Virus record (IMG/VR): IMGVR_UViG_3300028025_003303
Location: 1 to 43,946 of that record
Strand: one strand, 5' to 3'
Length of the DNA: 43,946 nt
Source: a virus
The position numbers and the translations under genes were made by a program. Below are positions 4,293 to 38,344 of the stretch, piece by piece. How positions within the stretch are numbered: position 1 is the first letter of the stretch; every line of letters begins with the position of its first letter. Under the pieces are notes generated by a model, which was not told where the DNA came from, made no database searches, and was given only the letters and a program-made list of their open reading frames with translations.

Positions 4293-4853
4293 TTATAAAT
4301 AATCAATCATCTTTTGTAATAAAATTTTATTATCATTGACTTGACCTAAAACTCTATTACAGTTTGAACATAACAAACCTCTAATACATTTTCCACATGA
4401 TCCAGATCCAGAACAGCATGCATGATCATGGTCTATTGATAGACGTTTTTTAAACTTTTCTGGTTCCCCGCAAATTTTACAAACCCCATTTTGAGACTTT
4501 TCTAGATTTACATAATCATCTCTTGTCAAACCATATCTTTTAAGGTTTCCTACATGACCAATAAGTGGTTGACAGGTTTTACAGTATGTATTATTAGACC
4601 AGAAAGAAGACTTGGGTAGATACTGTTCACAATAACGACAATGTATTTTTGTACCCTGCATCTTTCTAGGCATGACTCTTTTTGAATCATCTTCTGCAAG
4701 ATCATATTCACGCACACAAGTTTTACAAAAATGTTTGTATCCATCAGGTGATTTTGTAAATTTATGAAATTCTGAAAAACTTTTAAAATTTTTACATTTA
4801 GTGCATTGTTTTTTATCTGCTAAAACTATTGGGCGTTCATGTTGTTTTCTCAT
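4293..4853 (-). CDS. recombination endonuclease VII with extra zinc knuckles
   Basis: The protein has 186 residues. The C-terminal half (about 107-186) is an endonuclease VII domain: YGLTRDDY, a CKIC pair (125-128), the metal site DHDH (141-144) and CSNCNRVLGQ (162-171). T4 gp49 enzymes of this family resolve Holliday junctions and debranch DNA before packaging. The N-terminal half holds two further four-cysteine sets (17/20/43/46 and 72/75/91/94), likely zinc knuckles for DNA binding. It is convergent with the SpeD-like gene. Confidence 0.85.
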   Translation of the reverse strand: MRKQHERPIVLADKKQCTKCKNFKSFSEFHKFTKSPDGYKHFCKTCVREYDLAEDDSKRVMPRKMQGTKIHCRYCEQYLPKSSFWSNNTYCKTCQPLIGHVGNLKRYGLTRDDYVNLEKSQNGVCKICGEPEKFKKRLSIDHDHACCSGSGSCGKCIRGLLCSNCNRVLGQVNDNKILLQKMIDYL

Positions 4854-4965
4854 ATAACTAGTATAGCATATTTTCAGATTCTAGTCAGATTTTATATTCA
4901 AACTTTCTGTCATTTTGTTGGTCTTGTATGATATGTAATTTTAAAAATAAAAATACAAAAAAATA

Positions 4966-4990
4966 GTGAGGACACGAAACGCATCCCCAC
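4966..4990 (-). terminator. intrinsic terminator after the small left-facing operon
   Basis: On the - strand GTGGGGATGCG pairs with CGTGTCCTCAC around a TTT loop. The 11-bp stem includes three G-U pairs and is followed by TATTTTTTTG. It sits just past the stop of the gene ending at 5003 and so ends the 5003-5740 operon. A short AGCCTA/TAGGCT stem lies at the stop codon itself. Confidence 0.75.
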
Positions 4991-5002
4991 CATCTAGCCT
5001 AT

Positions 5003-5176
5003 CTAGGCTGTACCTTGTAAATAACCATCTATCCCAACAAGATCACAAGTAACCTTAACTCTTTGATTTTTTTTGAGTGTTGAGCGATAAAGTTTGATAA
5101 AGTCTAACACCTCTTGCTTAGACATCAGGCTAATGTCTCTGGTGTTACCTTGCATAGATGTAATTGTTACTTTCAT
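5003..5176 (-). CDS. small early protein, paralogue of the 7405-7590 product
   Basis: The protein has 57 residues and starts MKVTITSMQGNTRDISLMSK. It aligns along its whole length with the 61-residue protein at 7405-7590: both have a strand-turn-strand start, a helix FI.LY/FISTY, then RVKVTCDLVGIDGYLQG versus SVKVACDALGVRGTLRG. The pair shows duplication between the left- and right-facing early operons. Function unknown. It is the last gene of its operon and its TAG lies in a hairpin. Confidence 0.7.
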   Translation of the reverse strand: MKVTITSMQGNTRDISLMSKQEVLDFIKLYRSTLKKNQRVKVTCDLVGIDGYLQGTA

Positions 5177-5272
5177 TTATTTCCCCTCAAAAATTTCTAG
5201 TAGTGTGTCTATTTGTTCATCTGTTAGATGGTCAATTTGTATTGCGTTAGCAAAACCTAGTAGGTCATTCAT
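5177..5272 (-). CDS. 31-residue acidic helical protein
   Basis: The protein reads MNDLLGFANAIQIDHLTDEQ followed by IDTLLEIFEGK. It is predicted to be mostly helix and is acidic. The start overlaps the upstream TGA by 4 bp, and AAATAA ends directly against the next ATG. The LTDEQIDTLLEIF pattern looks like a small protein-interaction helix. No function is known. Confidence 0.6.
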   Translation of the reverse strand: MNDLLGFANAIQIDHLTDEQIDTLLEIFEGK

Positions 5273-5436
5273 TTATTGACCTCTACCTTCATGATGTTAG
5301 CAGAGAACTTAACACGCTTAGCAACCTCGCTAGAGTTTAGTTCTGCTATAACCTTATCAACATCCTTGATGTTATTAGCAATGTTATTGATTGAGAGTAG
5401 ATTGCTACCCTGCCAAATTGAGTAAGTGATAGTCAT
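5269..5436 (-). CDS. 55-residue hypothetical early protein
   Basis: The protein starts MTITYSIWQGSNLLSINNIA and ends in KVEVNK. It is a small mixed alpha/beta protein without cysteines or a membrane segment. A GGAGTTATCTAATT ribosome site precedes the ATG, which lies just downstream of the 27-residue membrane peptide. It is coupled to the next gene by a 4-bp overlap. Function is not recognised. Confidence 0.6.
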   Translation of the reverse strand: MTITYSIWQGSNLLSINNIANNIKDVDKVIAELNSSEVAKRVKFSANIMKVEVNK

Positions 5437-5438
5437 AA

Positions 5439-5522
5439 TTAGATAACTCCTTCGTTAGTTAATACCATACCTAATATCATTGTGATAAAGGATAGAGATG
5501 AGATGATGAGTAGGATAGTCAT
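5439..5522 (-). CDS. 27-residue membrane peptide
   Basis: The peptide consists almost entirely of one hydrophobic helix (TILLIISSLSFITMILGMVL) ending in TNEGVI. It lies within a tightly packed operon, 2 bp from its downstream neighbour. Single-helix peptides of this size recur in this genome (10384, 15984, 20811). The role is unknown; inner-membrane insertion is inferred. Confidence 0.5.
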   Translation of the reverse strand: MTILLIISSLSFITMILGMVLTNEGVI

Positions 5523-5524
5523 GG

Positions 5525-5740
5525 TTAGTTTCCTACCTTCGTGTTATTCATAACCCAACGGCTTTCGTTAGGTGATAGATAGCGGTGTGATACTACACCT
5601 TGCTTAGTAGCAAGCAATTCTAGGTATGCCTTGCGGCTAATGTAGTTTCCTACTGTATTGCGAAAGACCATAGGGCTTCCTGTATTAGATGAAGCCATAA
5701 CATGGTTAGGCTCTAATGTTATTGTATTTAGTGTAGTCAT
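5525..5740 (-). CDS. 71-residue hypothetical, first gene of left-facing early operon
   Basis: The protein starts MTTLNTITLEPNHVMASSNT and continues with GSPMVFRNTVGNYISRKAY. AGAAAGGTAGTTAAA provides a ribosome site. The C-terminal half is basic and polar, with VVSHRYLSPNESRWVMNN. There is no recognised domain. As the first gene of the operon, it is served by the promoters at 5860-5925 and 6011-6076. Confidence 0.6.
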   Translation of the reverse strand: MTTLNTITLEPNHVMASSNTGSPMVFRNTVGNYISRKAYLELLATKQGVVSHRYLSPNESRWVMNNTKVGN

Positions 5741-5859
5741 TTTAACTACCTTTCTTTTAATCTAGTTAGCGATTTGCTAACCTTTTTGCTGACCTAGGTT
5801 ATTTGCTCTATTGCTAGAGGCTCACTAGGATTTTCCTTTATTTAATTTTCTATGTCGTA

Positions 5860-5925
5860 AGACTATCACACTTACCCTGAAAAGTCAAGGCGACACGCTG
5901 TATCTTTCGTGTGATTTAGGTCACT
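5860..5925 (-). promoter_or_regulatory. left-facing promoter A with CRP-like operator
   Basis: On the - strand: -35 TTGACT (5888-5883), 17-bp spacer, -10 TAGTCT (5865-5860). The palindrome TGTGA-TTTAGG-TCACT (5910-5925) is centred about 64.5 bp upstream of the inferred start near 5853. The arrangement is a near copy of promoter B 151 bp away. Confidence 0.7.
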
Positions 5926-6010
5926 TATTCGCTAGGCTCATCCGAACATCTGTTCGTCTTATTTGCTAGGCTCATTAACCTTATCTATCTCTATTTATTT
6001 GTATAAGGGA

Positions 6011-6076
6011 ATACTATCACACTACCCCCCAAAAGTCAAGTCCTACATCGGCGTGTCGTGTGTGATATAGCCCACA
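6011..6076 (-). promoter_or_regulatory. left-facing promoter B with CRP-like operator
   Basis: On the - strand: -35 TTGACT (6039-6034), 17-bp spacer containing a run of six G, -10 TAGTAT (6016-6011). TGTGA-TATAGC-CCACA (6061-6076) is centred at about -64.5, the same offset as in promoter A. Duplicate promoters for one short operon suggest strong or staged early expression. Confidence 0.7.
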
Positions 6077-6116
6077 TTTTTGGGCCGCCCCAATGTCCGA
6101 TTTGTACCTATTTAAA

Positions 6117-6202
6117 TGTGGTGTAACTCACAGTGGCTTATGTCCGAAATGTCCGTTTTGTGGTACCAAAAATGTCAGTGGTAGGTGTTATACTTCTAGT
6201 AT
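6117..6202 (+). promoter_or_regulatory. right-facing early promoter with palindrome and TGTCCG pair
   Basis: Elements in order: TGTGG-TGTAAC-TCACA (6117-6132), TGTCCGAAATGTCCG (6141-6155), -35 GTCAGT (6174-6179), 17-bp spacer, -10 TAGTAT (6197-6202). The palindrome centre is about 84.5 bp upstream of the inferred start. The AAATGTCAGT box is shared with promoters at 7353 and 8398, defining a second promoter class. Confidence 0.65.
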
Positions 6203-6244
6203 AAAGAAAGTCAGAAAAGGTTTCTGAACTAGAAAGGAATTCAA

Positions 6245-6427
6245 ATGAATTCAAATGTAATAATCACAGTGTGTAAATCACACGTTCCTAATAAGTCTGC
6301 TATCTCAGAGTTAGTAGATACACAATTCACGTTTTGTGAAGTTTGTGAAAATAACATTGAACGTTGGTATAACGATTCAGACCCTGAACGTCTACCAATG
6401 TGGACATCTTGGCAGGTGTCTAAATGA
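6245..6427 (+). CDS. 60-residue zinc-knuckle-like early protein
   Basis: The protein starts MNSNVIITVCKSHVPNKSAI. C10, H13 and the pair C33/C36 (CEVC) could bind one zinc ion; the acidic and aromatic tail is RWYNDSDPERLPMWTSWQVS. AGAAAGGAATTCAA is the ribosome site. The stop overlaps the next ATG (ATGA). Small Cys-containing proteins are frequent here and may bind host proteins or nucleic acid, but no function is recognised. Confidence 0.65.
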   Translation: MNSNVIITVCKSHVPNKSAISELVDTQFTFCEVCENNIERWYNDSDPERLPMWTSWQVSK

Positions 6428-6531
6428 TAGACTTTGTTAAACAGTTAGAATTAAATAACTACCTTGATGAAAATCAAGACCCACTAGCAAAAATGCTAGA
6501 TGAACTTATCCTGAAAGGAGAATACAAATAA
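6424..6531 (+). CDS. 35-residue acidic helical protein
   Basis: The protein reads MIDFVKQLELNNYLDENQDP then LAKMLDELILKGEYK. It is acidic and probably two helices. Overlaps at both ends (ATGA with the previous gene, TAATG with the next) show a coupled operon. The amphipathic LAKMLDELIL helix resembles toxin- or polymerase-binding phage peptides, but this is only a resemblance. Confidence 0.6.
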   Translation: MIDFVKQLELNNYLDENQDPLAKMLDELILKGEYK

Positions 6532-6677
6532 TGAATGACTTTGAAATTAAAAATAATTTGTTAAATGAAATTAAAGAATTGACAGAAAATAATTATCCTA
6601 AAATGTGGGGTAGTGCTTCTGCGCTTCTCACAATTGAACAATTAGAAATTATCAAATCAGTTATGGAAAATAAATGA
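6531..6677 (+). CDS. 48-residue hypothetical helical protein
   Basis: The protein starts MNDFEIKNNLLNEIKELTEN, has a central turn NYPKMWGSASA, and ends in a second helix LTIEQLEIIKSVMENK. A helix-turn-helix hairpin is likely. Good AAAGGAG ribosome site. It overlaps the next ATG by 4 bp. Function unknown. Confidence 0.6.
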   Translation: MNDFEIKNNLLNEIKELTENNYPKMWGSASALLTIEQLEIIKSVMENK

Positions 6678-6799
6678 TAAAAGAAATAAAAAATAAAATT
6701 ATTCGCATTCAAGAATTGCGTCGTAGTAATGCTGCGACTGCAATACCAAATAAAAAAAAATATTCTAGAAAAATAAAACATAAAAATAAATTGCAATAA
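6674..6799 (+). CDS. 41-residue very basic protein
   Basis: The protein starts MIKEIKNKIIRIQELRRSNA and continues with a Lys/Arg-rich tail (KKKYSRKIKHKNKLQ). The high positive charge points to nucleic-acid or ribosome binding, though composition alone is weak evidence. It is the last gene of the first right-facing operon; its TAA is 5 bp before GGCCGCCCC. Confidence 0.55.
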   Translation: MIKEIKNKIIRIQELRRSNAATAIPNKKKYSRKIKHKNKLQ

Positions 6800-6843
6800 A
6801 AAAGGCCGCCCCGTTCGGGCGTGTCGCTTTGCTTTACGTACGA

Positions 6844-6951
6844 TGTGGTTAAGATCACAGAAATTTTGTGGGCTAAATCACATCGCTGAGCGTCTCACTA
6901 TTTGGATTTACTGGCTAGTAAGTTGTAAATCTCTGCTAAATCTGTTAAACT
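6844..6951 (+). promoter_or_regulatory. early promoter with two CRP-like palindromes
   Basis: TGTGG-TTAAGA-TCACA (6844-6859) and TGTGG-GCTAAA-TCACA (6867-6882) lie 23 bp apart. A candidate promoter is TTGTAA (6923-6928), 17 bp, TAAACT (6946-6951). The second palindrome is then centred at about -83.5 and the first at about -106.5. The -35 and -10 are weaker than elsewhere. Confidence 0.5.
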
Positions 6952-6988
6952 TACATAGTAAGAAAATAAAGAAAGGAAGTGGCTAATA

Positions 6989-8324: not shown

Positions 8325-8345
8325 TTATCCACAGGGTTATCCACA
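8325..8345 (+). promoter_or_regulatory. two perfect DnaA boxes
   Basis: TTATCCACA occurs at 8325-8333 and again at 8337-8345, a 12-bp period. Both match the bacterial DnaA-box consensus exactly. They sit between GGGGCGGCC (8314) and the palindrome at 8353. Host DnaA could bind here, either for replication initiation or to control the operon starting at 8445. Confidence 0.75.
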
Positions 8346-9657: not shown

Positions 9658-10377
9658 ATGCCCTTAATTAGAAGTAAAGATAGGAAAGTCGCAAATGCAG
9701 TCACACCAAACGGAAAACAAGCAAGTATCGCTAACACTTTTGGATTACCTAGTGGAAAAGATTTCTCGTGCCCTGGTGCCACGAGTGTATGTGAAAGAAT
9801 CTGCTACGCAGGAAAGTTAGAAAAACTATTCCCTGGTGTTAAGGGAGTACTACTTAACAATTGGGAATTACTTAAAGACGCAGACCACGATACTATGGAA
9901 GCGTTGCTATCAGAAATGATTGACGGTTTTAGAAAAGATTGTGAAAAGAAAAATGCTCCATTGCTATTTCGTATCCATTGGGACGGAGATTTCTTTTCGG
10001 ATGAGTACGCATTCGCATGGAAGCATGTAGTCCTTAATAATCCTGATATTCAATTTTGGGTTTATACACGAGTTAAGTCTGCCGCAGTTATGCTAAAGGA
10101 TATGGATAATCTATCTTTATACTATTCCGCAGATAGTGAAAATATAAAAGAAGCGGTAGATCTAAAAAATACTCATGGCATTCGCATGGCATACCTTGCA
10201 CAGAATTTTGCGGTAGGTCAAGCACAGATGAAAGAGATGATAGGTAAGGTAGGGGCTAAGTGTCCTGAGAATAAAAAAGCAATTCCGCTTATCTCAACAA
10301 ATGGCTCCGCTTGCGTTTCGTGTTCATTATGTGTATACTCAAAGAGCGACATTGTATTCTCGTCAAGCAAGAAGTGA
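9658..10377 (+). CDS. GP88-like protein with Cys clusters
   Basis: The protein has 239 residues and matches the actinophage 'gene 88' family. C38, C45 and C49 (CPGATSVCERICYAGK) form the N-terminal cluster; C202, C219, C222 and C225 (CVSCSLC) the C-terminal one. Between them lies RIHWDGDFFSDEYAFAWKHV, then a YTR strand. Seven cysteines in two sets suggest a zinc or Fe-S site joining the ends of a barrel-like domain. The family has no established activity. The start is leaderless, fixed by the promoter 6 bp upstream. Confidence 0.8.
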   Translation: MPLIRSKDRKVANAVTPNGKQASIANTFGLPSGKDFSCPGATSVCERICYAGKLEKLFPGVKGVLLNNWELLKDADHDTMEALLSEMIDGFRKDCEKKNAPLLFRIHWDGDFFSDEYAFAWKHVVLNNPDIQFWVYTRVKSAAVMLKDMDNLSLYYSADSENIKEAVDLKNTHGIRMAYLAQNFAVGQAQMKEMIGKVGAKCPENKKAIPLISTNGSACVSCSLCVYSKSDIVFSSSKK

Positions 10378-12469: not shown

Positions 12470-13486
12470 ATGGCACATGACCTAGAAACACAAAACGGAA
12501 AAACATCTTTTGCATCTTTCCGTGAACCCGCATGGCATGGATTGGGTACTGTTTTCACAGAAGAAAAAACAACATCAGAAATGCTGGAAGCAGCAAGTCT
12601 AAATGGTTGGAATGTTCGTCTTGAAGATATGCCTATCCCATCACACTTAACAAGCGACAAGGAATACCAATATGTTGTTCGCACTAATCCTACAACTAAT
12701 ACACAAACCGATGTGCTAGGCGTTGTTGGTGAGCGTTACCATGTTTTGCAAAATGAAGATTTATTTTCATTTGGCGATAACATCCTAGATGGTGGTGGAC
12801 GTTGGGAAACCGCTGGCTCAATCAAGGGTGGACGTGTTGTGTTCGGTGCATTAGCACTAGAGCGTGAAACTGTCCTAGACCCAAATGGTGTTGCAGATAA
12901 GGTTAAAACTTATCTTCTCATTAACACATCACATGATGGCTCAATCGCTATTCAAGCAAGCATCACACCTGTTCGTGTTGTGTGCGCTAATACTCTTAAC
13001 CTTGCGTTAAATCGCACTAAGAAAAAAGATGGCGTAAAGCAATCTTTCAAGATTCGTCACACACAAACTGCCAATGGTAAAGTACAAATTGCTCGTGAGA
13101 CTTTAGGCATGGCTAATAAATACATGGACGAATTTGATATCATGGCTAAGGCAATGATTGAAAAGACTGTTGATGCTAAAATGTTTAACGACATTATTCT
13201 TGCTGCTTATCCTAAGCCAGATGCAGATGCAAAAGGCTCATTCAAGAAGTGGGAAAATAAAATAGATATGATTAACGATATCTATACTGGTGAATTTAAC
13301 GGAATGATTGCTGGAAATGCGTGGGGTGCGTTCAATGCACTAACTGAGCGTTTAGACTGGTATCGTTCTGCTCGTGGTGGTTCTAACGAATCTATCCTTG
13401 CAAGTGCATCAGGATTTGACCCTGCTATTAACGCAGAGAAAAATCGTTTGCTAAAAGTTGTACAAAATACTTTGCAACTAGTTTAG
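12470..13486 (+). CDS. DUF932 phage/plasmid-like protein
   Basis: The protein has 338 residues, the usual length for this family. The N-terminus shows the family signature REPAWHGLGTVF (about 18-29), then VVGERYHVLQNED, GGRWETAG and the conserved centre SITPVRVVCANTLNLAL. DUF932 proteins are common on phages and plasmids and lack an established biochemical role; links to replication or recombination have been suggested from gene context. It is alone between a strong promoter and tRNA-Asp. Confidence 0.85.
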   Translation: MAHDLETQNGKTSFASFREPAWHGLGTVFTEEKTTSEMLEAASLNGWNVRLEDMPIPSHLTSDKEYQYVVRTNPTTNTQTDVLGVVGERYHVLQNEDLFSFGDNILDGGGRWETAGSIKGGRVVFGALALERETVLDPNGVADKVKTYLLINTSHDGSIAIQASITPVRVVCANTLNLALNRTKKKDGVKQSFKIRHTQTANGKVQIARETLGMANKYMDEFDIMAKAMIEKTVDAKMFNDIILAAYPKPDADAKGSFKKWENKIDMINDIYTGEFNGMIAGNAWGAFNALTERLDWYRSARGGSNESILASASGFDPAINAEKNRLLKVVQNTLQLV

Positions 13487-16520: not shown

Positions 16521-16754
16521 ATGGGATTTATGCGTAGGTCTATTAGACTAGCAGTAAGCAAAGAGGAGAAGGTAGCCAATAAAATGGTTGCTCTCTTGTC
16601 TGACTTTACCCTTGACCTAGAAGCCATTGGTTTTTATTTAGCAAAGGGTTCTCCACACATTATTTATACGAGGGCTAATGAAGTATTAGAGGCTATGCAG
16701 TATAATAAAGAAGTTGACGAATTAGATAGAGGTGTCTACTATGGAACAAAGTAA
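16521..16754 (+). CDS. 77-residue hypothetical, leaderless
   Basis: The protein starts MGFMRRSIRLAVSKEEKVAN. The basic N-terminus is followed by helices (KMVALLSDFTLDLEAIGFYL) and an aromatic PHIIYTRAN. The start is fixed by the -10 box 6 bp upstream. It overlaps the next gene by 14 bp. Function unknown. Confidence 0.65.
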   Translation: MGFMRRSIRLAVSKEEKVANKMVALLSDFTLDLEAIGFYLAKGSPHIIYTRANEVLEAMQYNKEVDELDRGVYYGTK

Positions 16755-17022
16755 TTTATTTGATAACAAGGTAAGCATCCTTGCTGAACTATGGATGAAC
16801 TATCGTGATGACGAACAGTTAAAAGATTTTATAGAATACAACGATCTTGGTTTGCCTATGGCTTATTTCTTAATGAATGAATTGGTTTTGCCTACCCAGC
16901 AATCAGAAATTTACATTAACGAAACCTATAATCTTTTAATTGCTTCTCTTGGCGTTAAAGATGTTGAGTATGAATCCTTAGACGAACTTTTATCTACTGA
17001 GCCTGACGACTTCGGCAACTAA
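16741..17022 (+). CDS. 93-residue acidic helical protein
   Basis: The protein starts MEQSNLFDNKVSILAELWMN and then YRDDEQLKDFIEYNDLGLPM. The all-helical pattern with ILAELW..YR.D..L.DFI..ND.GLP.A...... matches a small protein family common in actinophages (unassigned). The ATG at 16741 follows AGAGGTG; an alternative GTG at 16732 would add three residues. It is the last gene before the repeat region. Confidence 0.65.
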   Translation: MEQSNLFDNKVSILAELWMNYRDDEQLKDFIEYNDLGLPMAYFLMNELVLPTQQSEIYINETYNLLIASLGVKDVEYESLDELLSTEPDDFGN

Positions 17023-17078
17023 TAATAAATCCTGCTTTTTGGGGGCGGCCCAAATCATATCAAAAGGGACATATCTAC

Positions 17079-17855
17079 CAAACCTTATTTTCCAAAAAGA
17101 CATTAAGAACCCTTTCTAAAAAATCCCAGAAAGTTTGCCAAACCTTTCTATCTCAAACCTTTCAAACCTTATATCCGACAAACCTTTATACCAGGATATA
17201 GGGTTTTGTATCTTATACTATAGGTATTACGATCATATCTTTTTATCCCCCGCCCTAAAGCGTTTTAATTATCCTATTAGACATTACGACGGGCCTCAAA
17301 AAATCGCTGGAAGTTTGGCGGGGGATTTAGAAACATAACACTTCTACCCCCTATAAGATAACAAACCTTTTCTTCTGGTTTTTAAATAAATACCAAACCT
17401 TTCTATTCTTTTTGCTGGATTTTCCTACATTTTTCCTACATTTTTGTACAAAATTTATAGGGGTTTTTAGCATACAAGGTTTGACAAATAGAAGGTTTGG
17501 GAGTATAATCCGCTATCAAGGTTTGGGGTTTGGTAGGTTTGAAGGTTTGTTAGATACTAGATGTAGTGGTTTGGCATTACGAACGCCCCATATATAGGCG
17601 CCTAATCACCCACTTCACTCCACTTTCCTCCACCAAAACCAAATCTAAAAAATATCAGTAAGATTTAATTTGCTTACCAAACCTCACCAGATAGCATTTA
17701 AAAGCCTTCTAAGCCTATTTTGGGAGGGTATCAAACCATCATCCTGGATCCATATTCAGGCATATCTGGTTTATCAAACCAGCATAGAGCCTATGGGTTC
17801 AAACCTTCATATCCTGGATATCTGGCATATCTGGCTATCTCAAAAACAAGGTTTG
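17079..17855. repeat. field of CAAACCTTT / AAGGTTTG repeats
   Basis: Forward copies CAAACCTT(T): 17079, 17139, 17154, 17163, 17179, 17362, 17394, then 17678 (CAAACCT) and 17800. Inverted copies AAGGTTTG: 17476, 17492, 17518, 17535 (one mismatch), 17542, and 17848. Degenerate CAAACC at 17732 and 17775. The orientation switches in blocks: forward on the left, inverted in the middle, mostly forward on the right. Spacing is irregular (9 to 180 bp), unlike CRISPR. Iteron- or ParB/centromere-like binding sites are the simplest reading. Confidence 0.8.
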
Positions 17856-17895
17856 GTATATAGGGTTATGTCTTATAGGGGTGATTGGGTACTCT

Positions 17896-17924
17896 TTGAC
17901 TTCCCCGCCAAAATTTGATATACT
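17896..17924 (+). promoter_or_regulatory. TTGACT promoter for the methyltransferase-like gene
   Basis: TTGACT (17896-17901), spacer TCCCCGCCAAAATTTGA (17 bp), TATACT (17919-17924). The spacer is nearly identical to that of the promoter at 18667, although the genes downstream are unrelated. Confidence 0.8.
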
Positions 17925-17947
17925 TAAAAAACAACATTGGGGTTTAA

Positions 17948-18666: not shown

Positions 18667-18695
18667 TTGACTTCCCCCGCAAAATTTGATATGCT
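18667..18695 (+). promoter_or_regulatory. TTGACT promoter for leaderless gene at 18702
   Basis: TTGACT (18667-18672), spacer TCCCCCGCAAAATTTGA (17 bp), TATGCT (18690-18695), then 6 nt to ATG. Confidence 0.8.
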
Positions 18696-31465: not shown

Positions 31466-31747
31466 TTACTCCATTGTTAAAGACTGCCAAGTGTTTGACC
31501 AGTCTTGTTTAGATTTGTGCTTATTAAACTCTCTTGAAATTTCTCCAGTTTCAAGATAAACACCTCCCCAAACTCCCCACTCTTTTCCAGATACTCCGTT
31601 AGCAAAACATGTTTTTCTAACAGGGCACTGTCTACAAAGTGCATCAACATTTTGTCTAATCCCCTCTTCATCTTCATACTTATCAAAGTATAAATTTGTT
31701 TCAAGACCTAAACAAGCAGCCTCATCTTTCCATAAATGCTGCTTCAA
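31466..31747 (-). CDS. WhiB-family iron-sulphur transcription factor
   Basis: The protein has 93 residues. All four WhiB cysteines are present: C12, C38-x2-C41-x5-C47, which bind a 4Fe-4S cluster, followed by the turn GVWGG (58-62). WhiB proteins are restricted to actinobacteria and their phages and bind the housekeeping sigma factor region 4, changing promoter choice. The basic C-terminal DNA-binding tail is short (HKSKQD). A phage copy may redirect host transcription or affect septation, as shown for the mycobacteriophage TM4 WhiB; here the role is inferred. Confidence 0.93.
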   Translation of the reverse strand: MKQHLWKDEAACLGLETNLYFDKYEDEEGIRQNVDALCRQCPVRKTCFANGVSGKEWGVWGGVYLETGEISREFNKHKSKQDWSNTWQSLTME

Positions 31748-37474: not shown

Positions 37475-38344
37475 TTACTTCAATATATCAATAAAGTTGT
37501 TTGACTTTATTTGTTCACTCTCTGTTGGTTTTGACAAAGACTTAAGGTATTCATATGTTGATGAATAACTTCCCTTATAGTTTTTAACCCAATAAGATGC
37601 AAGCGCAGCAGTTGCTGCTGATGTTCCTACTGCATTCTTTGCGCTTGTTTCAAAAGAGCCTAAAGCATAGAAATCAAGTTCTTTTCCACCATTACTATGC
37701 AATGCAATTCTGCCTTCTCTTGTTGCAGAACCAACTGCAATAGATTCAGTAATACATGCTGGATAGTCTACTCTAGAAATATCATAGTTATTTCCTGCTG
37801 CAAAAATAGTTGCAACATTTAAAGATTGTAGTTTAACAATGCTGTCTCGTAAGTTAGCCTTTACTGGACAATAGTTTGCTCCAGTACGTAAGTTATGATG
37901 ACCAATTGATGCAGATGTTGCAACAATGTTAAACTTTTGTTTATTTTGTGCAACCCACTCTAATGCACTTAGCACAGAAGATTCTGTATATTGTGACTGT
38001 CTTCCATTTGCAGCCATTGGAACAATACGAATAAACACAATATTAATATCTGGGTTTACCTGTGTTGCAATTAAAGCCATGATTGTTCCATGATCAAAGC
38101 CATTAGCATATAGTTGGCTTGCTGGAAGAGATGCAGATCCAGGACCTTCTTGAATCATTTGTTTGTTTGGGCATCCTTTAGACTGCATAACACATGCCTC
38201 ATAAATAATTTTACCTTGAAGTGCTGGCAATGTTGTATCAATTGCTGTATCAATAATTGCAATTGAAGGTTTTACTTCTGCTGATGCTGGTGCAAGTAGT
38301 GTTAATCCTAATGCTACTGCAATCCCCACTGCGATTTTTTTCAT
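37475..38344 (-). CDS. secreted subtilisin-like serine protease (S8)
   Basis: The protein has 289 residues. The signal peptide MKKIAVGIAVALGLTLLAPA ends at ASA (20-22), a likely signal peptidase I site. The catalytic triad is D32 (IIDTAID), H85 (GFDHGTIMA) and S242 (GTSAATAALA), with the oxyanion Asn185 in AAGNN. Four cysteines outside the core may form disulphides. A signal peptide on a phage protease is unusual: it could act at the cell envelope at lysis or on the virion surface. No propeptide is evident. Confidence 0.9.
   Translation of the reverse strand: MKKIAVGIAVALGLTLLAPASAEVKPSIAIIDTAIDTTLPALQGKIIYEACVMQSKGCPNKQMIQEGPGSASLPASQLYANGFDHGTIMALIATQVNPDINIVFIRIVPMAANGRQSQYTESSVLSALEWVAQNKQKFNIVATSASIGHHNLRTGANYCPVKANLRDSIVKLQSLNVATIFAAGNNYDISRVDYPACITESIAVGSATREGRIALHSNGGKELDFYALGSFETSAKNAVGTSAATAALASYWVKNYKGSYSSTYEYLKSLSKPTESEQIKSNNFIDILK

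Follow-up and report, generated by a model that had tools for sequence, protein, structure and literature searches.

The concatemer junction of phage T7, which has its own RNA polymerase, lies near a promoter, is flanked by arrays of short repeats and belongs to a repeat of 160 bp; Chung and Hinkle reportedly described, in 1990, a T7 origin together with the concatemer junction. At lambda cosB and in the pac arrays of P1, reiterated recognition words stand on the packaged side of the cut. How the repeat is duplicated during packaging of long-terminal-repeat phages is, to our knowledge, poorly understood.

The long terminal repeats of the cluster-BE phages of Streptomyces have already been published, and the ends of cluster-BE1 genomes were set by pile-ups of read starts and doubled coverage (PMC5764925). 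The terminal repeat of Samisti12 is 10,666 bp long; for Samisti12 and NootNoot the lengths that we measured equal the published ones (PMC5764925). For Jay2Jay (NC_029098; L207/L200), matching the first bases of the record gave 11,438 bp, against 10,778 bp in the table of PMC5764925.

In six cluster-BE phages the gap homologous to the locus described below holds the boundary of a direct terminal repeat of ~11 kb, cut immediately before NATTACACA and placed in non-coding DNA between convergent gene blocks. Left of the cut, at 219-732 nt, are 3-6 [AT]TTACGA units in a single orientation; right of it, at 49-86 nt, are TTAT[AC]CACA boxes in five of the six, the sixth (Bmoc) having only an inverted one at +105. 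Comrade, a member of another subfamily with a repeat of 734 bp, is cut immediately before TATTACACT.

Here we analyse a repeat field in a stretch of 43,946 nt (the window), an IMG/VR record that is a fragment of an uncultured phage and has no larger genome in IMG/VR. Genome-end cleavage, which an earlier sequence-only reading of the field did not propose, is its best-supported function: the field is probably a genome-end (concatemer-cleavage) locus, cut between 17603 and 17604. What was observed is its anatomy, the conservation of that anatomy, and the fact that contigs of three relatives end at the homologous base.

A gene-free field and its word array

The field and the genes to which it is compared comprise the following features (slashes mark the cut):

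9658-10377, plus strand: homolog (49%) of a cluster-BE terminal-repeat gene
12470-13486, plus strand: homolog (53%, phrog_1221) of a cluster-BE terminal-repeat gene
16732-17022, plus strand: gene for a 96-aa protein, function unassigned; homologs adjoin the equivalent gap in relatives
17023-17947: gene-free repeat field, 925 bp
17023-17603, plus strand: left part of the field, the predicted terminal-repeat end, with word array, ATTACGA units, AT-rich stretch and promoter
17079-17399, plus strand: seven CAAACC(TT) words
17226-17232, plus strand: ATTACGA unit, shared with Streptomyces phages
17283-17289, plus strand: ATTACGA unit
17404-17475: AT-rich stretch before the promoter, containing tandem TCCTACATTTT
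17478-17573, minus strand: seven GGTTTG words (minus orientation), overlapping and then following the promoter
17481-17509, plus strand: consensus sigma-70 promoter, TTGACA-17-TATAAT, a 12/12 match and the sole one in the window
17576-17582, plus strand: final ATTACGA unit, 21 nt left of the cut
17603/17604: predicted genome end and cleavage site, GGCGCCT/AATCACCCAC, from contig ends of relatives and homology to the BE cut
17604-17668, plus strand: conserved block opening the unique side, with AGTAAGAT at 17657-17664, 53 nt from the cut
17678-17855: five more words right of the cut, four plus (17678-17805) and one minus (17850)

We agree with the sequence-only reading that the gap is gene-free and functional; ORFs of 61-82 aa can be called in it mechanically, but relatives show indels that break the frame. 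In a search for a structured RNA, Rfam matched no family in the gap and only tRNAs scored above gathering. No DNA similarity was found in cultured phages. The 96-aa protein has no Pfam or PHROGs match above the cut-off and no cultured relative; its relatives number more than 100, all in uncultured viruses. Dozens of these uncultured relatives likewise have a gap downstream of the gene, and in a further set genes follow it directly, so that the field is not universal. Because the methyltransferase-like gene downstream of the field found no relatives in IMG/VR, we tie the field to its upstream side.

The host of the window's phage is probably actinobacterial, to which a WhiB gene (31466-31747) points. 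At 37475-38344 (minus strand) the window encodes a subtilisin-like protease with an apparent signal peptide, which is unusual for a phage.

The hexamer CAAACC occurs 19 times in the 925 bp of the gap and 46 times in the other 43 kb, the strongest word enrichment of the whole window; in dinucleotide shuffles of the gap its mean was 0.71 and its maximum 5. Counts in the gap and in the rest of the window were 15 and 14 for CAAACCT, 13 and 8 for CAAACCTT, and 5 and 2 for CAAACCTTT. The description of about 18 copies of a 7-9 bp word was borne out, as were the orientation blocks (seven plus, seven minus, four plus, one minus), and the word search, run as a check across the window, showed that the word is not equally frequent elsewhere. 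The longer words said to be interleaved are present but minor: two of the four copies of CATATCTGG and two of the three of ATCCTGGAT lie in the gap. More conserved than either, and missed by the earlier reading, are ATTACGA (three copies, all plus) and the parts around 17603/17604.

In 21 close relatives the gap after the 96-aa gene holds 11-23 CAAACC words and a 12/12 sigma-70 promoter. In distant relatives with a gap the word becomes CAAATA or CAAATT, or is sparse; since the gap persists while the word drifts, the word is the fast-changing layer of the locus.

Deeper-conserved elements in fixed order

Alignment of the 21 close relatives and reading of the distant fields revealed a fixed order: [AT]TTACGA units, AT-rich stretch, promoter, last ATTACGA, junction motif (NATTACMCA or AATCACCCA) and AGTAAGAT, followed in many relatives by the DnaA boxes TGTGGATAA and TGTGTATAA. 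Two directional biases are apparent, in counts that include near relatives and are not of independent events: [AT]TTACGA units are forward 248 times and reverse 4 times in 57 fields, and in the 300 nt to the left of the motif, a promoter with a match of 11/12 or better faces the cut in 57 of 62 junctions and away from it in one (perfect promoters, 45 junctions against none). The window follows both, with its three units all plus and left of the cut, and its promoter pointing rightward at the cut with the -10 ending 94 nt before it. Many units continue, after 12-16 nt, into TTTTTCCC, an arrangement also present in Streptomyces phages.

The junction motif reads GCNC/NATTACMCA, with AGTAAGAT 53 nt later; in 58 distinct junctions AGTAAGA follows the motif at a distance of 52-55 nt. 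In the non-coding gap of the window the motif is AATCACCCA at 17604, with one substitution, T to C. The block at 17604-17668 is the place of DnaA boxes in relatives, which have been lost in the window. An inverted repeat just left of the cut is found in some members and is not general.

Contig ends at the junction

Contig ends were taken from scans of IMG/VR with junction patterns and verified on whole contigs. At the base homologous to 17603/17604 we found the ends of three independent contigs from close relatives, one reaching it from the left and the other two from the right: G022 (3300013006_000876) starts exactly at the cut (AATCACCC, beginning AATCACCCAC); G021 (3300042691_019489) has its last base at the cut, on the other strand; and G023 (3300042673_000371) ends with the base just left of the cut (...AAAAGCGCTC). 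The first pattern starts at the cut and is therefore blind to contigs that start just inside. As a control, a second scan used a motif lying 44 nt downstream; among the contigs listed it showed none starting between cut and motif besides the two at the cut, and one starting ~15 nt left of it. In an all-against-all comparison of locus ends the junction was the sole end shared outside identical sequences. Further contigs end 15-100 nt left of the cut, and assembly breaks are thus common near it.

The base shared by the three ends is the base of the BE cut. Two of the three lie on the unique side, where mature genomes that carry a terminal repeat should have no end. These two may represent intermediates of processing, or their group may have defined ends and no long repeat.

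G010 (IMG/VR 3300043438_002264; L170-L176), of 124,540 bp, carries an exact end duplication of 8,517 bp that contains the field. This duplication is unusable as proof of a terminal repeat, because an untrimmed circular assembly gives an equal result.

Comparison with the cluster-BE boundary

Bases 17023-17603 (plus strand) correspond by homology to the repeat side of the boundary found in the six BE phages. As at the boundaries of these Stanwilliamsviridae (e.g., Samisti12, NC_042012), the junction lies in a non-coding gap adjoining homologous genes, with a one-directional [AT]TTACGA array on the repeat side and the cut motif /NATTACMCA. The genes at 9658-10377 and 12470-13486, to the left of the field, belong to the terminal repeat in BE phages; the protein of the latter has its best cultured relatives there, and its homolog occurs twice in BE phages because it lies inside the terminal repeat. 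WhiB and thioredoxin genes lie outside the terminal repeat in BE phages and likewise in the window. When trained solely on distant freshwater fields, a nucleotide profile matched the window at 17572-17667 (E 7e-9). It also gave weak matches in LukeCage (E 0.006), NootNoot (1.6), Comrade (1.9) and Samisti12 (12), all overlapping their boundaries; such scores mean little singly, and it is the positions on the boundaries that carry meaning.

There are also differences. DnaA boxes lie beyond the cut in BE phages and many freshwater relatives, whereas the window's clade has lost them; conversely, the CAAACC array and the consensus promoter toward the cut are features of the window's clade, such a promoter being absent in BE phages. 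Nor is the motif of the other end common to both: the BE right-end motif TATGGGCGCACTA occurs neither in the window nor in six contigs.

The right ends of Comrade (L203) and the BE phages (L197-L202), which represent two subfamilies, share TATGGGCGCACTA ~35-50 nt before the end.

A model of end formation

The BE homology predicts a long terminal repeat for the phage of the window. The step 17603/17604 would then be the boundary between a long direct repeat, reaching left toward ~4-7 kb, and the unique region. Replicated DNA would be cut here, presumably by terminase, to give one physical end of the packaged linear genome. To the left of the cut, the reiterated words and the one-directional ATTACGA units are putative protein sites by which the packaging or processing machinery would recognise the end; transcripts from the consensus promoter, which is of host type, would run over the cut, hinting at a link between transcription and packaging.

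The T7 concatemer junction may serve, by analogy, as the model for this reading, including any role of transcription. The likeness is one of layout: a terminal-repeat end, adjoining arrays of short repeats, and transcription directed over the junction. However, the promoter here is of host sigma-70 type, in contrast to that of T7's own polymerase, and the repeat is probably longer than 10 kb, as against 160 bp. Lambda cosB and P1 pac resemble the field in having reiterated words on the packaged side; binding of terminase to the words here is putative.

In the literature, of which subscription papers mostly lay outside our search, we found no report of the conserved end anatomy, of a promoter aimed at the end, or of DnaA boxes alongside. 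It is tempting to suppose, though we hold the idea to be doubtful, that in a large family of uncultured freshwater actinophages end cleavage, a host-type promoter through the cut and ancestral DnaA boxes are coupled at one locus by a fast-evolving word. If true, replication, transcription and packaging would be joined at the terminal-repeat boundary. The locus itself offers a link, open to experiment, of end formation with transcription and replication in long-terminal-repeat phages. Its sequence signature also allows the genome ends of uncultured actinophages to be located with single-base precision in metagenomes, no virions being needed.

Near the expected other end of the repeat is a low-coding region of 2.1 kb (4854-6988), which contains a direct repeat of 43 nt and recurring ATCACAC words. 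The HNH gene at 4293-4853, considered as a counterpart of the HNH gene of the BE terminal repeat, has no significant similarity to it and is an endonuclease VII.

Origin, operator and partition

The sequence-only reading had suggested a replication origin. The words would be iteron-like sites for a phage initiator, with the promoter priming or opening the AT-rich stretch; in relatives, host DnaA would bind boxes just downstream of the cut. We consider this possible, although we lean against it. The case for it comes largely from relatives, which share with bacterial oriC and other DnaA-box origins clustered boxes and a nearby AT-rich stretch: at 25 of 70 junctions the first 200 nt on the right side contain at least two TTAT[AC]CACA boxes (essentially none lie left), in many relatives at 45-110 bp from the cut, and both exact TTATCCACA copies of G016 (90 kb) are right of its junction. 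AT-rich repeats and a promoter stand alongside, and seven longer relatives encode a DnaB-type helicase. DnaA boxes, however, are missing from the field of the window and almost wholly from its close clade; in their irregular spacing and mixed orientation the words differ from classical iterons; and the search for an initiator gene found none, the Bac_DnaA family being absent. The predicted skew signal also failed to appear: skew at four-fold (synonymous) sites follows genes rather than position, with no replication switch at the field. At or near the junction, beside which relatives carry DnaA boxes, an origin is plausible for the family and less so for the window.

The proposal that the words form an operator cluster, as regulator sites for the promoter at 17481-17509 with the genome-end position incidental, seems to us unlikely. 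Words do overlap the -35 and spacer of the promoter in the close clade, they flank a promoter at 16-nt steps in L157/L160, and their drift is explicable by one DNA-binding protein of changing specificity. Yet about half of them are far from the promoter, on either side of the cut, and the downstream genes of many relatives are convergent, leaving the transcript without an obvious gene to serve. The contig ends would be unexplained. A partition (centromere-like) locus, the other function suggested earlier, is highly improbable: a stretch without genes that holds clusters of direct and inverted words would suit it, but a search for ParB_N (PF02195) and AAA_31/ParA (PF13614) found neither in the window, in five relatives of 90-125 kb or in Samisti12.

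The TTATCCACA pair of the window lies at 8325-8345, 9.3 kb left of the cut and outside the field. Its two boxes are separated by 12 bp, with GTTAAGAT after them, and occupy a short gap that falls within the predicted terminal repeat; this is a candidate DnaA site for the window's clade. G001 has a DnaA box at an equal distance from the cut.

Two further promoters with a conserved spacer (TTGACTTCCCCGCCAAAATTTGATATACT and a close copy) stand at 17896-17924 and 18667-18695; they recur before short genes, and in relatives.
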